A DNA stretch of 55,953 nucleotides, taken from positions 1 through 55,953 of the IMG/VR virus record IMGVR_UViG_3300032307_000533, one strand, 5' to 3'. The notes beneath the pieces are model-generated. The model was not told the DNA's origin. It saw only the letters and a list, made by a program, of their open reading frames with translations, and made no database searches. The stretch comes from a virus. The position numbers and the translations under genes were made by a program. Of this stretch, positions 35,929-54,820 are shown piece after piece. Each line of letters begins with the position of its first letter. The first letter of the stretch is position 1.

Positions 35929-36144
35929 ATGACATTAAGAGAATTAAAAACATGGGTAGATAATCTACCAGAAGAATTTCTTGACTTTGAGGTGGTTAAC
36001 GGTGAAGTTGGGATGCTTGAGGGTCAATACATGTACCGTCTTGATAAACCAGTAACAACATTAATCGTTGATGAGGAAAATAAAGAGGTTGTGATATTAA
36101 ACGATTCGCAAGAAACCGAAGATCATATAAGAGAAAATTCGTAG
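35929..36144 (+). CDS. Small acidic protein, 71 residues
   Basis: Begins MTLRELKTWVDNLPEEFLDFEVVNGE and ends in an acidic tail. I recall similar short proteins in phages but with no known role. The stop overlaps the GTG start of the next gene. Confidence 0.6.
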   Translation: MTLRELKTWVDNLPEEFLDFEVVNGEVGMLEGQYMYRLDKPVTTLIVDEENKEVVILNDSQETEDHIRENS

Positions 36145-37511
36145 TGATTAAATTAATTATATTCGATTTGGATGGTGTTTTAGTTGAGGCTAAGAACATA
36201 CACTTTGAGGCTTTTAATAAAGCTCTTGGCGAATACGCCATCACCTGGGATGAGCATTTGTCGATCTACGATGGTTTGAAAACGAACCAAAAATTAGAGA
36301 TGCTTCACGAACGTAAAGGTTTACCCAAAGAATCCTTTACCGCTATCTGGGGTGATAAGCAAAAATACACTTTAGAAGCGTTAAGAAAGTTAGAAGATGA
36401 TCCGTTATTAACGCTAACAATTGCACATTTAGTTCATGATGGGTATAAAATCGCTGTTTGTTCTAACAGCATTCGCAAGACGGTTTTAACGGTTTTATCC
36501 AAACTTAACATTATCGAGTATATTGACCTGGTAATATCTAATGAGGATGTGAACAACTCAAAACCACATCCAGAGATGTATTGGAAAGCGATGAGTAAGA
36601 TGAGTGTTTTACCAGAGGAGACATTAATCGTTGAGGATTCACCTTACGGTTTACTAGCAGCCGCAAGAAGTAAATCGCACATACTAAGAGTGGCACACCC
36701 TAAAGATGTCACTTACACAAACATAGCAAATAAATTAAAAGAAATAGAAATGGGTACTGAAACAAACACACCTAAATGGAAGGATGGTAAGTTAAACGTG
36801 CTTATCCCGATGGCTGGTGCTGGATCTAGATTCGAGCAAGCTGGATACACCTTCCCTAAACCTCTTATCGAGGTTAATAATAAACCGATGATACAGGTGG
36901 TTGTTGATAACCTTAACATTGATGCGAACTATATATTCGTTGTACAAAAAGCCCACAGAGATAAGTATAATTTAGATACGTTATTAAATCTAATCGCACC
37001 TGGTTGTAAGATAATAGAAACGGAAGGTTTAACACAGGGTGCCGCTTGCACAGCTTTGTTAGCTAAAGAGTATATCAATAATGACGCACCGTTATTCTTC
37101 GCGAACTCCGATCAGTTTGTTGAATGGGATTCTAATGAGTTCATGTATAAAATGAATGAGACAAATGCCGATGGTGGTATCGTAACGTTCAAAGCCACCC
37201 ACCCAAAATGGTCGTTCGCTAAGATTGGGGATAGTGGTTTCGTTACTGAAGTTGCTGAGAAGAACCCAATATCAGATAACGCAACAGTTGGTTATTACTA
37301 TTGGAAGTCTGGTTCTGATTTCGTGAGATACGCTGAACAGATGATTGATAAAGATATTAGGGTTAACAACGAGTTTTACGTTTGCCCAGTGTTCAATCAG
37401 GCAATTGAAGATCAAAAGAAAATACTCGCATTTGATGTTAAAGGTATGTGGGGTCTGGGTACGCCAGAAGATTTAAAGTTTTACTTAGAGAACCATAAAA
37501 AATCTAATTAA
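36144..37511 (+). CDS. HAD phosphatase fused to sugar nucleotidyltransferase
   Basis: Residues 1-205 are a complete HAD phosphatase of the beta-phosphoglucomutase type (FDLDGVLVEAKN, CSNSIRKTV, NEDVNNSKPHPEMY, EDSPYGLLAA). From about residue 218 a GT-A-like nucleotidyltransferase begins (LNVLIPMAGAGSRFEQAGYTFPKPLIEV, NSDQFVEWDS), as in enzymes that activate sugar phosphates. Fusion could couple trimming of a sugar phosphate to its activation, or channel an intermediate. The GTG start overlaps the prior stop. It heads a glycan cluster with a WavE-like transferase and a GDPD-like enzyme. Confidence 0.88.
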   Translation: MIKLIIFDLDGVLVEAKNIHFEAFNKALGEYAITWDEHLSIYDGLKTNQKLEMLHERKGLPKESFTAIWGDKQKYTLEALRKLEDDPLLTLTIAHLVHDGYKIAVCSNSIRKTVLTVLSKLNIIEYIDLVISNEDVNNSKPHPEMYWKAMSKMSVLPEETLIVEDSPYGLLAAARSKSHILRVAHPKDVTYTNIANKLKEIEMGTETNTPKWKDGKLNVLIPMAGAGSRFEQAGYTFPKPLIEVNNKPMIQVVVDNLNIDANYIFVVQKAHRDKYNLDTLLNLIAPGCKIIETEGLTQGAACTALLAKEYINNDAPLFFANSDQFVEWDSNEFMYKMNETNADGGIVTFKATHPKWSFAKIGDSGFVTEVAEKNPISDNATVGYYYWKSGSDFVRYAEQMIDKDIRVNNEFYVCPVFNQAIEDQKKILAFDVKGMWGLGTPEDLKFYLENHKKSN

Positions 37512-49348: not shown

Positions 49349-49611
49349 TGACAATAAACGAACTATATGAGAAAGCTTTGGAGATCGAGTCTAAGTATAC
49401 ATCAGATTCTAATCTGAGTCTTTACATCAATAAAACCAGGTATCAAAATGGTATGATACGATACCAACTAAAGCATGAAGGTTCTGGTAAGATTGTCGAT
49501 ACTGGTTATGGTATAACTAACATTAGAGAACTACTAACTGTTTTTGATATGGGTATGGCTGCTAGATATAGGTTTAGAGATGCAGAGGGTGATAATTTAA
49601 CAATTGATTAA
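49348..49611 (+). CDS. Small unknown protein, 87 residues
   Basis: Begins MTINELYEKALEIESKYTSD and shares a base with the DHFR stop. Unknown. Confidence 0.6.
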   Translation: MTINELYEKALEIESKYTSDSNLSLYINKTRYQNGMIRYQLKHEGSGKIVDTGYGITNIRELLTVFDMGMAARYRFRDAEGDNLTID

Positions 49612-49612
49612 T

Positions 49613-50554
49613 ATGCGAGTAGTAGTAACAGGTGGCGCGGGTTTTATCGGTTCCGCGTTTATAAACAGACTTATGGATAAGTTTCCCGATATCGATGTAC
49701 TGTGTGTGGATAAACTAACATACGCAGGTAAAAGAAAAAATATTAAACACGATGTATCGTTCTTGCAAAAAGATATCTGTGATGTAACACCAGAGGATCT
49801 TGGTAGTTACGATTACCTTGTACACTTTGCGGCCGAGTCACACGTAGACAACTCAATTGAGAACGGTAGACCTTTCGTTAGAACGAACGTTGAAGGTACG
49901 TTTAATATGATTGAGTGCGCAAGACAGAATCCGAAGTTAGATAAGTTCATCCACATATCAACTGATGAGGTCTATGGTGACATGGCTGATCACTATTCAC
50001 TCAACCACTCAGCTACTGAGTTGGAACAGATTAAACCGAGTTCATACTATTCAGCTACTAAAGCTGCTTCGGATATGTTAGTTCAGGGTGCACATAGAAC
50101 TTTTGGTTTGCCGTACCTAATAACCAGAACTTGTAATAACTTTGGTGAGCATCAGGACCCAGAAAAGTTCTTACCGAAGATATATCAGTGTGTTAAAAAT
50201 GGTGGTGAGGTTCCTGTCTATGGTGACGGTGGCCAGGTAAGAGAGTGGATTTACGTCTATGATAATGTTGAGGTTATCCTTGATTTAATGTTTGATGAAG
50301 AAGCCGTTAACACCGTCTATAACATCGGATCTGGTGTTCATTATAGAAACATAGACCTTGTTAATATGATATCGGAGATACTTGGTAAGGATGTTAACTT
50401 TAAATTCGTAGCTGATAGACTTGGTCACGATAGAGCTTATCGTTTGAATTGTACCAAACTTAAAAAATACTATAAAGACAATAATTTTGATATGAAATAC
50501 TACAATATTAAAGATTATTTGTTAAAATTGTATGGTAATGATTCGGGTAAATAA
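49613..50554 (+). CDS. rfbB: dTDP-glucose 4,6-dehydratase-like (RmlB)
   Basis: The 313-residue SDR protein has VVVTGGAGFIGSAFI, YAGKRKNIK, LVHFAAESHVDNSI, HISTDEVYGD, YSATKAASDMLV (YxxxK), TRTCNNFGEHQDPEKFLPK and RVREWIYV-like segments, all landmarks of RmlB. It makes dTDP-4-keto-6-deoxyglucose for rhamnose synthesis. ATG 49613 is used over the upstream TTG at 49604. A RmlC-like gene lies 2.6 kb downstream. Confidence 0.92.
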   Translation: MRVVVTGGAGFIGSAFINRLMDKFPDIDVLCVDKLTYAGKRKNIKHDVSFLQKDICDVTPEDLGSYDYLVHFAAESHVDNSIENGRPFVRTNVEGTFNMIECARQNPKLDKFIHISTDEVYGDMADHYSLNHSATELEQIKPSSYYSATKAASDMLVQGAHRTFGLPYLITRTCNNFGEHQDPEKFLPKIYQCVKNGGEVPVYGDGGQVREWIYVYDNVEVILDLMFDEEAVNTVYNIGSGVHYRNIDLVNMISEILGKDVNFKFVADRLGHDRAYRLNCTKLKKYYKDNNFDMKYYNIKDYLLKLYGNDSGK

Positions 50555-51533
50555 ATACGAAATAATAGAAGATGGTGGTGTACAACGCCTTAAGGTTTGG
50601 TACACCTACTTGGGTAAAGAGCCGATGATCGGCGTACCTAAAATAACTGACGCTGTGTTTAGGACAATGGCCTATTCAGCTCAAAAAATAGCTCTTGAAC
50701 CTGGCTACAATTACTGGTGTGTTTTTAACGGTAACGCCCACGGTGTTGGTTCTAATATTGTCAGTAATTTCTCTATTGGCGTTATCTTTCAGTTATTAAC
50801 AGAGGATAGATCCAGAGTGGTATATGCTGAGGAGATACCTTTCGTTATAACGGATTATAAAAGACGATCTTTCGGTGGTAAAGACACATACGCCAAGCCG
50901 AACTTCTGGTTAATCGGCGCATCTATGACTGGTTATATGGTTAGAGATATGAAACCTGAAGCGTTTATCACAAGTAAGTATGTTATAACACCCGTATCCC
51001 ACTTAGCGTTATCACTTAATCGTTTCTTGAAATCCGACTATAAAAAATTCTTACAGTCAATACCCATAAAACCAAACGATACTATAGGTTTATTCCTTGG
51101 TGGTGTCGACTTGAATGTCTCCGTTGTTCGTAACGCGAAATTAAAAGGTATAACACCACAGCACTTACTCAACAAAATCCTATTCAAATATGTTGGTGTC
51201 ATAAAAGAGATAGAACAGTTATACCCAAAATGTAAAATTGTCATCATCCCAACAACCGCGACCATACCTGAGACGCATAACGTTTCAAACCCAACCTTCA
51301 TTGCTGGTTCACAAGAACTTAGAAGAGAATTATGTGACCAATATATTAACTTCTTTGAACAAGAAGTTAAATCAAAGAACATAGAATATTTTTGGGATTG
51401 CATGAATGTTTACTTAGACGGGAAAGGATATTGTAAAGAAGAATTCCTGATAAAGGATGATCACCACATTGGCGATGGTACAGTTTTCATCGAGAAACTT
51501 AAAAAGAAAATTGATGAAAATAATCTGTATTGA
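50532..51533 (+). CDS. SGNH-like hydrolase/acyltransferase-like protein
   Basis: The 333-residue protein has WLIGASMTGYM, IGLFLGGVDLNVS and IKDDHHIGDGT. These resemble the first, third and last blocks of SGNH enzymes, with the nucleophile block reading GAS. It may remove or transfer acyl groups on sugars. The match is by motif only. It overlaps RmlB by up to 23 bases. Confidence 0.6.
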   Translation: MVMIRVNKYEIIEDGGVQRLKVWYTYLGKEPMIGVPKITDAVFRTMAYSAQKIALEPGYNYWCVFNGNAHGVGSNIVSNFSIGVIFQLLTEDRSRVVYAEEIPFVITDYKRRSFGGKDTYAKPNFWLIGASMTGYMVRDMKPEAFITSKYVITPVSHLALSLNRFLKSDYKKFLQSIPIKPNDTIGLFLGGVDLNVSVVRNAKLKGITPQHLLNKILFKYVGVIKEIEQLYPKCKIVIIPTTATIPETHNVSNPTFIAGSQELRRELCDQYINFFEQEVKSKNIEYFWDCMNVYLDGKGYCKEEFLIKDDHHIGDGTVFIEKLKKKIDENNLY

Positions 51534-51578: not shown

Positions 51579-51755
51579 ATGGTAACAGAAAAAATTATCG
51601 ACAGTTTCGTTTATGAAACAATGGAAGGTCAGTTTATGGTAACCGATCCCACAGAATTCGACCAAGTAATCCCAGGTGGTCCTTGGCCAACAAAAGAAGA
51701 TGCTGAGAAAGCTCTGATAAACTTCATCGATGAAAACCAAATCACATTCGAGTAA
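51579..51755 (+). CDS. Small protein coupled to tyrosinase, 58 residues
   Basis: ATG 51579 encodes MVTEKIIDSFVYETMEGQFM, then PGGPWPTKEDAEKALINF. Its stop overlaps the tyrosinase start by one base, so the two are translated together. It may be a partner or copper chaperone, but no metal motif is seen. Unknown. Confidence 0.6.
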   Translation: MVTEKIIDSFVYETMEGQFMVTDPTEFDQVIPGGPWPTKEDAEKALINFIDENQITFE

Positions 51756-53188
51756 TGAATAAAAGAATTATCATATTAGTATCAGCAGCAGTACTGTTGG
51801 TTATCGGGTTGTTCCTTGTACTGAATAATAACGAACCGAAAAGATACGTCAGAAGCGAAGCTCATTCGATTGAGGCTCAGGACGATTTAGAGGCGATGGG
51901 TAAGGCGTTAAAGATCATGCGCAACTTACCATGCGATAACCCATTGAGTTGGTATTATCAAGGGGCGATGCACTGGATCCCAGATACAATTAACAACAAC
52001 CAGTTGTGTAGTTGGTATGGCAATGTGTCACAAATTAAAGATGGTTGGGATAATTGTACACATACACCAAGTGGTAAAGAGAAACTACATTTCTTAGTTT
52101 GGCATAGATTATACATCTGGCATTTTGAGAAGATCGTTAGAAAACTATCTGGTTATCAAGACTTTGCGTTACCTTATTGGGGTTACACTAACCAGGATAG
52201 TAAGTATAAAGTCCTACCAGATATCTTTAGAAATAGTAAATCATCGTTATATGAACCCTGCCGTTTTGACAGTTTGAATAACGGTTACCCTGTGTCTGGT
52301 GAGATCGAGAGATCATTGGACTTAACCAAACTATACGCATATAAAGACTATGCTTTGTTTAGTAATAATATAAACGCGGCACCTCACGGAGCGATGCACG
52401 ATTACATTGGTGCGGGTAATGATGTGACTGGTAATCTTAAGTTTAATAACACAATCACTGGTACAATATCTAACACAGGTTTGATGGGTTGGGTTCCGAC
52501 AGCAGCGTTCGATCCAATATTCTGGTTACACCACTCCAACATCGATAGGGTTTGGCAACAATGGACTAACTCACCTAACGGTAAGGCGGTCATGTTAGAA
52601 CAACTAAAGGATGCTCCATGGCAATACGTATTCTTCGATGAGAATGGTAAGCGTGTGGAGTACACAGTTGAAGAGGCTTTGGATATCGTATACGGTGAAA
52701 TGGATTATGATTTTGATGATACTAAGTTAACGCCAAAAACAAATCCTGTTATGTTACCCACGCAATATAAAACAGTTGTTGCTGAGAGTAATGAGAAGGT
52801 CGCTATTAATAGTCAGATAACAGATGCGGTAACTCAACTAAAGCACGGTGGTCAGATAAGCAACAAAGTTCTATTGACAATAACTGTTTCATATACTAAG
52901 ACTCCGAAGGGTTCTTATGAGGTGTACGTTAATAAACCAAGTAACATATCATTCCACCCTAGCAATAAACACTTCGCTGGTTACATGACGTTCTTTGGTT
53001 CAGACCATAAGATGCCAGGTAAGTCTTGCGAGAATGGTTGTTGCAGACCTTTAACAAAAACAGGTAGGCCAACATTCACATTCGAATACGAGATACCAGC
53101 CAATGAGTTCTACACAATAAAGGTGTATAAACACAGTGGTAAACACTCAGGTGATTTAATCATAGAAAACATTACAATAAAACAATAA
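51755..53188 (+). CDS. Membrane-anchored tyrosinase/polyphenol oxidase
   Basis: The 477-residue protein has an N-terminal hydrophobic anchor (about residues 5-23), a tyrosinase domain and a beta-rich C-terminal domain. CuA-type segments are AMHWIPD, CTHTPSG and FLVWHRLYIWHFE. CuB is HGAMHDYIG with His211 and His215, then DPIFWLHHSNIDRVWQQW with His259. Tyrosinases use O2 and two coppers to oxidise phenols to quinones. CuA holds an extra five residues between the CTH and WHR histidines compared with the usual spacing. A phage-encoded enzyme of this type is very unusual. It could crosslink or modify surface or extracellular material. Confidence 0.9.
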   Translation: MNKRIIILVSAAVLLVIGLFLVLNNNEPKRYVRSEAHSIEAQDDLEAMGKALKIMRNLPCDNPLSWYYQGAMHWIPDTINNNQLCSWYGNVSQIKDGWDNCTHTPSGKEKLHFLVWHRLYIWHFEKIVRKLSGYQDFALPYWGYTNQDSKYKVLPDIFRNSKSSLYEPCRFDSLNNGYPVSGEIERSLDLTKLYAYKDYALFSNNINAAPHGAMHDYIGAGNDVTGNLKFNNTITGTISNTGLMGWVPTAAFDPIFWLHHSNIDRVWQQWTNSPNGKAVMLEQLKDAPWQYVFFDENGKRVEYTVEEALDIVYGEMDYDFDDTKLTPKTNPVMLPTQYKTVVAESNEKVAINSQITDAVTQLKHGGQISNKVLLTITVSYTKTPKGSYEVYVNKPSNISFHPSNKHFAGYMTFFGSDHKMPGKSCENGCCRPLTKTGRPTFTFEYEIPANEFYTIKVYKHSGKHSGDLIIENITIKQ

Positions 53189-53189
53189 T

Positions 53190-53855
53190 ATGGAAAAAGC
53201 TACATTGATTTATAATCCATGCTTTGCTGATAATAGAGGGGTTTTCGCCCCTCTTCCTTTAGTATTTGGTGAAGATAAGATTGAGATCCTTAGAAAGGAT
53301 TGGGTACAAAGTAATATTAGTTACAACCCGAATAAGTTTACATTCCGCGGTATGCACCTACAAGAGGGACCACATGCACAAGCTAAATTGGTTAAGGTTG
53401 TAAACGGTTCTATCATAGATTTTGTAGTTGACTTAAGACCTAAATCACCTGACTATCTTAAGGTACAAGAATTTATTGTTACCTCTGGTTCAGAGGTGTA
53501 TGTACCTAGAGGTTTTGCACATGGATTTATCACAACCGAAGATAACACAGTTGTTCAGTATCTAGTTGACAATTACTATAATAGAGAGAGTGAGCGATCA
53601 ATTCTATGGAGTAGTTTCCCAGAAATCCGTAAAATTATTAAAGAACAACACGTAGACCCAATCATATCGGATAAAGACCTCAATGCTACACCTATCCACG
53701 ATTATCTATTGGAACCCAAATTAATTTTTGATACGGTTGAGTGGCAGGGAAGAGGTATTAACAATTTATATAATTCCAACTTTGCGGTTGTTTTAGCTGG
53801 TTCCCTTATGTTATTGGGGTTATTTTGTTTAGCTATTTTAAATTTTTTAAAATAA
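53190..53855 (+). CDS. RmlC-like epimerase with C-terminal membrane tail
   Basis: Residues 1-185 have the RmlC plan: YNPCFADNRGVFAP, FRGMHLQEGPHAQAKLVKVVNGSIIDFVVDLR and VYVPRGFAHGF. The H in MHLQ and the HGF segment match the active site. From about residue 195 a hydrophobic segment (FAVVLAGSLMLLGLFCLAIL) forms a likely membrane anchor not usual in RmlC. It follows tyrosinase directly. It would act on dTDP-4-keto-6-deoxyglucose from RmlB, or have a different cupin role. Confidence 0.85.
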   Translation: MEKATLIYNPCFADNRGVFAPLPLVFGEDKIEILRKDWVQSNISYNPNKFTFRGMHLQEGPHAQAKLVKVVNGSIIDFVVDLRPKSPDYLKVQEFIVTSGSEVYVPRGFAHGFITTEDNTVVQYLVDNYYNRESERSILWSSFPEIRKIIKEQHVDPIISDKDLNATPIHDYLLEPKLIFDTVEWQGRGINNLYNSNFAVVLAGSLMLLGLFCLAILNFLK

Positions 53856-54646: not shown

Positions 54647-54820
54647 ATGGCAGAATTAATTATTTTATGTAGCATCCCAAGCATATTCTTTATGTTGATT
54701 GCTGAGGTAAATGGTGGGGGTAAGAGTCGATGGTTCACTTACTTTTTCATTAAACTACCATCATTCATTGCTGCGGTATTAATCGTGGTTTATTTCCTAA
54801 AACAATTTAAATTTATATAA
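54647..54820 (+). CDS. Small membrane protein, 57 residues
   Basis: ATG 54647 encodes two hydrophobic helices (LIILCSIPSIFFMLIAE and LPSFIAAVLIVVYFL) with a Gly/Lys linker. Next gene starts directly after its stop. Unknown. Confidence 0.58.
   Translation: MAELIILCSIPSIFFMLIAEVNGGGKSRWFTYFFIKLPSFIAAVLIVVYFLKQFKFI

Follow-up and report, generated by a model that had tools for sequence, protein, structure and literature searches.

Why would a phage carry a tyrosinase, and does the gene encode a complete enzyme? The question is raised by a stretch of DNA of 55,953 nucleotides (the window), corresponding to positions 1 to 55,953 of the IMG/VR virus record IMGVR_UViG_3300032307_000533. A first, sequence-only reading had proposed that it encodes a membrane-anchored tyrosinase, coupled to a small upstream gene and possibly acting with the neighbouring RmlB and RmlC-like proteins on a phenol-bearing polymer, on the envelope or against competitors. 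Taken together, our results lead us to give odds of about two in three to a type-3 copper phenol oxidase which was captured once from Bacteroidota by tailed phages and kept as an envelope-tethered accessory gene.

Copper site, lid domain and membrane tether

The coordinates given in the first reading proved exact, and the 477-amino-acid ORF codes for the whole of a type-3 copper protein belonging to the tyrosinase/polyphenol-oxidase (PPO) family. As expected from the motifs noticed earlier, the Pfam Tyrosinase profile PF00264 matched the protein with an E value of 2.1e-30 and 107 bits (cut-off 22.6), and it matched 26/26 viral and bacterial homologues. These motifs were all recovered, namely CTH (C101/H103), WHR (H117), PHGAMH (H211/H215) and DPIFWLHHSNIDR (H259/H260), which, together with H73, gives the six histidines in two motifs required of the type-3 copper family (H73, H103, H117; H211, H215, H259/H260). 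The residues H73, H103, H117, H211, H215, H259, H260 and C101 are invariant, far beyond chance, across 14 aligned viral homologues (A1) and in a second alignment, which brings together 26 viral and bacterial sequences (A2); C60 and C85 are invariant as well. Five extra residues between the CTH and WHR histidines had also been pointed out. They are real, the H103 to H117 spacing being of 14 residues versus 9 in HcTyr1 of Hahella sp. CCB MM4 (H78-H87, PMC11609597), but they are not a phage oddity. Because the same five residues are found in the Flavobacterium and Mucilaginibacter homologues, and four extra ones in Emticicia, the insertion marks the subfamily, and it was ruled out as a phage trait.

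An AlphaFold2 model built on A2 reached a pLDDT of 84.6 and a pTM of 0.87, the CuA region being at only about 63–74. The four-helix-bundle core of the family was found in the model as helices 39-56, 108-132, 199-218 and 255-272. In agreement with the initial assignment, the best VIA-align match was the bacterial tyrosinase HcTyr1 (8B74; Z 29.6, 367 residues at 3.8 Å, over residues 30-477), followed by latent tomato PPO (27.7), apple PPO (27.4), Ralstonia TYR (26.4) and haemocyanins (about 20). In HcTyr1, copper is held by His43/78/87 and His211/215/238, and both monophenolase and diphenolase activities have been measured (PMC11609597). As the fold alignment to the latent PPOs runs over the full length, the C-terminal beta domain is predicted to be a lid of the latent-PPO type. 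Among the 26 homologues, PPO1_KFDV was matched in 2 and DUF7868 in 12, with weak PPO1_DWL matches as well.

Table 1. Coordinates of the features of the tyrosinase locus. Positions are those of the window. HA1 to HA3 and HB1 to HB3 denote the CuA and CuB ligands; the last line gives the contigs of the second viral family.
Feature	Position	Strand	Basis
58-aa gene, overlaps tyrosinase start by one base	51579..51755	+	no Pfam/PHROG match
Tyrosinase-family gene, 477 aa, starts ATG	51755..53188	+	PF00264 2.1e-30; AF2 model; Z 29.6 to 8B74
Putative N-terminal signal-anchor, residues 5-24, no lipobox	51767..51826	+	sequence; AF2 helix 3-23; alignments
H73, CuA ligand HA1 (by alignment)	51971..51973	+	invariant in A1, A2
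C101-T-H103, HA2 and CxH cysteine (candidate thioether)	52055..52063	+	C101, H103 invariant
H117 of WHR, HA3; HA2-HA3 distance 5 residues longer than in HcTyr1	52103..52105	+	invariant in A1, A2
N207, water-keeper position, 4 residues before HB1; Asn/Asp replaces Glu	52373..52375	+	alignments; PMC11608171
H211 (HB1), G212 (HB1+1), H215 (HB2), D216 (HB2+1)	52385..52402	+	alignments
H259/H260, HB3 and conserved seventh His	52529..52534	+	invariant in A1, A2
Predicted C-terminal beta domain (lid/KFDV-like), residues 341-477	52775..53185	+	fold match to latent plant PPO, HcTyr1; Pfam
CxxxCC motif (C425, C429, C430) in lid loop	53027..53044	+	alignments; loop AF2 pLDDT <50
Second-family contigs	L110, L113-L115, L117-L119, L121, L124, L125, L130, L132, L134-L140		IMG/VR scan

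The loop of this domain lying between FFG and the next strand holds 2–7 His and up to 5 Met in the Bacteroidota copies. At that place 14 of the 16 viral rows of the tree carry CxxxCC; the two others have lost the loop (L016) or show the bacterial type (L037). A fungal pro-tyrosinase takes up copper with the help of a CxxC motif, so copper loading or lid control by the phage Cys loop is a reasonable guess, though not more.

Position 207 is N or D throughout the viral and Bacteroidota clade, in place of the water-keeper Glu. Its register was confirmed by the second viral family described below, where a Glu stands four residues before HB1 (EQGPH/ESGPH). Characterised PPOs nearly always have this Glu, a fungal exception being known (PMC11608171), and for this reason it was not taken as family-defining; Asn or Asp at this place could reduce or alter the activity. 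According to the rules of PMC11608171, a tyrosinase has an acidic residue, Asn or a small residue at HB1+1 and a non-basic one at HB2+1. Gly at HB1+1 (G212) and Asp or Asn at HB2+1 (D216 here) agree with these monophenolase-type rules, which are predictive only, and lean towards a tyrosinase rather than a catechol oxidase. In A2, an acid tends to occupy either the water-keeper position or HB2+1 (207 and 216), not both. Compensation between these positions by a moving acid was considered and dropped, the independent pairs giving a trend only (sign test, median p 0.25).

The predicted membrane anchoring of the tyrosinase was borne out. Its N-terminus (MNKRIIILVSAAVLLVIGLFLVLNNN) consists, over the first 25 residues, of a hydrophobic anchor devoid of a lipobox cysteine, modelled by AlphaFold2 as a helix from 3 to 23. 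Other phage copies and all close Bacteroidota homologues have a lipobox at the matching position. About half of the viral copies keep it, while those of the window, L003-L008, L014 and L015 were assigned by eye to a cysteine-free anchor helix, and three changes of tether type were mapped on the tree. As judged from these N-termini, membrane attachment is conserved while its means switches between lipoprotein and transmembrane anchor.

Phage carriers and gene neighbourhood

The source of the window is a virus record, and the window carries phage-type NadV, RNA ligases, ThyA and PRPP synthetase. No proof of a bacterial contig came to light; the two models used for capsid and terminase (PF07068, PF03237) gave no match in it. 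Scanning IMG/VR led to the recovery of relatives, 41–64% identical, on about 20 contigs of up to 476 kb, with exactly one tyrosinase copy in 17/17 viral records searched. The T4-type capsid protein Gp23 (PF07068) scored above cut-off on six of the tyrosinase contigs (252, 299, 476, 68, 134 and 21 kb) and the terminase TerL (PF03237) on five, and identical flanks were seen in independent contigs (L003-L007/L019; L011-L013; L018/L021; L010/L014). Four genes lying within about 10 kb of the tyrosinase, namely PRPP synthetase, NadV, a DHFR-like gene and an 87-aa gene, are common to the window and the 299-kb contig with Gp23 and TerL (G004). These hallmark genes and shared flanks substantiate the proposal of a phage-encoded tyrosinase. 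With hallmark genes on the same molecule, a variable presence and a bacterial origin, the gene has the attributes of a phage accessory gene, and its carriers are large tailed phages, probably infecting Bacteroidota.

The search of large phage genomes, which the first reading had called for, was productive in IMG/VR but not in GenBank, where tblastn queries with four different tyrosinases gave no tyrosinase among 50,697 phage records. A fold search of BFVD returned no viral tyrosinase, and among open-licence papers we found neither a report of a phage tyrosinase nor a phage description of its chemistry (quinones, melanin, protein cross-linking). A close relationship of the window with Tenacibaculum phage PTm1 was discarded, as the 50 kb compared have no more than NadV and one short gene in common.

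The small upstream gene does share its stop with the tyrosinase start, its TAA overlapping the ATG by one base (...GAGTAATGAATAAA...). As a coupled partner, it did not hold. Its only IMG/VR relative, 75% identical (L109), follows DHFR, the 87-aa gene and RmlB in the same order as in the window, then adjoins a GIY-YIG gene and the start of a small membrane-protein gene; no tyrosinase lies downstream before the end of that contig. At other tyrosinase loci, unrelated genes occupy this position. Since the tyrosinase stretch is missing at this site in L109, a near relative, the gene is accessory and its pairing with the 58-aa gene a chance of position; a role of the latter as partner or copper caddie was therefore rejected, as it has no family match and its only relative is not beside a tyrosinase. 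By eye, the small membrane protein of L109 resembles a 57-aa ORF at 54647 of the window, and small membrane proteins of three related phages, encoded close to the tyrosinase site, share the pattern FML[VI]A.V[NT]G (window 54647-54820, L012:7811-7987, L109:6450-6558).

The RmlB/RmlC cluster was likewise discarded as a functional context, and with it the role that had been deduced from it, because this neighbourhood is peculiar to the window: a search for RmlB gave no match in the 299-kb contig, nor in the majority of the other tyrosinase contigs. Elsewhere the tyrosinase is found next to NUDIX, DNA ligase, a guanylate-kinase-like gene, DUF3127, RNase T, UvdE and ThyA (L007), Band 7 and adenylosuccinate synthetase (L012), an M50 peptidase (L010), or repeated genes of one unknown family together with an SLT transglycosylase gene (L017), and NadV/AdSS are among its neighbours on other contigs. 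Two adjacent genes of 540–560 aa, with no Pfam match, stand back to back with the tyrosinase on the 281-kb and 476-kb contigs (L010:4552-7882, L014:4552-7852). The window also contains a nucleotide-sugar set, scattered over 459-2020, 36144-37511, 49604-50554 and 53190-53855, which comprises a DegT aminotransferase, a PglD-like transferase, HAD and nucleotidyltransferase, RmlB and an RmlC-like protein with a C-terminal membrane helix. A 333-aa protein encoded at 50532-51533, with no Pfam/PHROG match, resembles SGNH hydrolases by eye in its C-terminal pattern (LGGVD ... DDHHIGDG).

Bacterial origin, host and a second viral family

Among the bacterial genomes scanned, the closest homologues were those of Flavobacterium cerinum (50% identity), Emticicia (47%) and Mucilaginibacter (47–48%), the gene being rare in its phylum (6/395 Bacteroidota genomes). 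All 16 viral rows of a 48-protein tree group together (support 100/99; 100% of bootstrap trees) as a clade that is sister (99/95) to the lipoprotein tyrosinases of these three genera. As this single clade is nested in Bacteroidota, one capture accounts for all viral copies. Close viral pairs gave dN/dS values of 0.015–0.053 (about 0.04), and this purifying selection indicates that the protein is in use. The neighbours of the bacterial homologues were examined as a functional clue and dismissed, having no theme in common. In Mucilaginibacter (L043:723-6389), genes for a ferritin-like protein, an MbnB/TglH/ChrH-type RiPP enzyme and DUF2063 precede the tyrosinase, a possible copper-peptide operon.

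Shine-Dalgarno words were found at 4% of the window start sites versus 6% in shuffled leaders, the leaders being 45% A. Most relatives gave the same picture, L015 being an exception with Shine-Dalgarno words at 25%. Absent Shine-Dalgarno words and A-rich leaders are a known pattern of Bacteroidota translation, so that a member of the Bacteroidota is the most likely host; the distribution of DUF3127, located next to the tyrosinase in L007, presumably suggests the same host. The Bacteroidota promoter motif TANNTTTG was set aside as weak (93 observed versus 74.5 expected, 3/100 shuffles as high).

To look beyond this clade, IMG/VR was scanned with the general pattern DP.F..HH.N.DR, which yielded 31 stretches corresponding to the known clade and to 19 contigs with another tyrosinase. 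Most N-termini of this second family have a Tat-type RR motif, and the proteins carry the Glu water-keeper and Asn at HB1+1. Two of the contigs (109 and 297 kb) encode Gp23 and TerL; the single query tried against GenBank phages recovered no member. In a quick tree, whose branches are long, the family stood apart from the first, and L115 may not belong to it. That two families are both exported suggests that tyrosinase activity outside the cytoplasm would be useful to phages. Near the Tat-type tyrosinase of L110, we noticed a 114-aa ORF (L110:5270-5614) with a signal-like N-terminus and a PEP-CTERM-like end (VPEPSTYALFAGMIGLGYAVYRRK), which is unusual on a viral contig and may point to an exosortase-bearing host.

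Possible function and known systems

A scheme for the tyrosinase can be put forward as follows. A tailed phage lineage would have taken the gene once from a Bacteroidota bacterium. The protein would leave the cytoplasm of the infected cell but remain tethered, here by an uncleaved N-terminal helix and probably by a lipid in the bacterial ancestors and many of the relatives. Two coppers on six histidines would use O2 for turning phenols and catechols into reactive quinones, with the C-terminal domain covering the site as a lid, as in the latent plant and bacterial enzymes; that the phage protein takes up copper and is active, we infer from its family. Because of this export and tether, the enzyme would act at the envelope of the infected cell, where quinones or melanin-like products formed during infection at the periplasmic or outer face may alter or shield the cell surface. 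That the purpose is such a change, as a defence against phenolic stress, oxidative stress or rival phages, is proposed only tentatively and with the odds against it.

The substrates of HcTyr1, the nearest solved enzyme, lead to another reading. It acts on L-tyrosine and L-DOPA and has been assayed on lignin-related phenols (PMC11609597), and the phage enzyme might in the same way detoxify or polymerise small phenolics (humic, lignin, algal or host pigments) as an auxiliary metabolic gene with no special link to the envelope. The scattered gene neighbourhoods suit an accessory gene of this kind, but a diffusible substrate would not need such strict tethering, and we regard this reading as possible, if rather doubtful. 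Tethering by two different means, and the Tat export of the second family, would instead fit an enzyme that oxidises tyrosines of surface proteins or surface phenols, cross-links them and hides receptors from other phages. Such a superinfection barrier seems unlikely, however, since no surface or receptor genes are conserved next to the tyrosinase, the RmlB/RmlC link is unique to the window, and the lid should restrict the access of proteins to the site. It is still less probable that the protein is non-catalytic, binding O2 or copper in the manner of haemocyanins or sequestering copper, with CxxxCC as an extra metal site: despite the Asn/Asp at the water-keeper position, high sequence scores against haemocyanin domains as well, and a Cys loop where bacteria have His/Met loops, by fold the protein is closest to a bacterial tyrosinase of measured activity and to latent PPOs (Z 25–30), haemocyanins scoring lower (Z about 20), and the acid at HB2+1 and the small HB1+1 suit catalysis. 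A bacterial gene on a miscalled or chimeric contig, to which the lack of a capsid or terminase match in the window with the two models could point, is highly improbable given that the contigs come from about 20 different metagenomes, that several have flanks in common, that Gp23 lies on six and TerL on five of them, and that the viral copies form a clade apart from all bacterial ones.

The envelope-tethered phenol oxidase captured from Bacteroidota thus remains our preferred reading. Two exported families, one of them under strong purifying selection over proteins down to 41% identity, suggest that the activity pays during infection. A broader and rather speculative proposal is that tailed phages captured tyrosinases at least twice, as a tethered Bacteroidota-type and as a Tat-exported enzyme, for oxidising envelope phenols or surface proteins, the Cys loop replacing His/Met for copper loading or lid locking; this would amount to a quinone-based remodelling or shielding of the envelope, used by no described phage system. 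The locus offers a starting point for testing an infection strategy that would act at the cell envelope and for studying a putative copper- and O2-dependent phage enzyme, and possibly a viral input to phenolic-carbon turnover in water and sediment.

The kind of enzyme is old; judging from the collections searched and from open-licence papers, no one has yet described a monophyletic, tethered lineage of it that is carried by phages and has a Cys lid loop. Its closest counterparts are the Bacteroidota lipoprotein tyrosinases (F. cerinum L041, Emticicia L042, Mucilaginibacter L043-L046), 47–50% identical over the full length and forming the sister clade, which share a similar CuA spacing, export with membrane anchoring and the Asn/Asp water-keeper position, but are chromosomal, always have a lipobox and bear a His/Met-rich lid loop instead of CxxxCC. 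HcTyr1 has the same two-domain fold, six His and CxH cysteine, but is about 24% identical, with an HA2-HA3 spacing of 9 (phage 14) and an HB2-HB3 spacing of 23 (phage 44). The second viral family resembles the first in being exported and located on viral contigs, and differs by its mostly Tat-type signal, Glu water-keeper, Asn at HB1+1 and separate clade. The latent plant PPOs (6HQI from tomato, 6ELS from apple, 4Z11-14 for aurone synthase) have in common with the phage protein a central and a C-terminal lid domain (Z 25–28), whereas they are plastid-targeted and unanchored and possess the Glu water-keeper.
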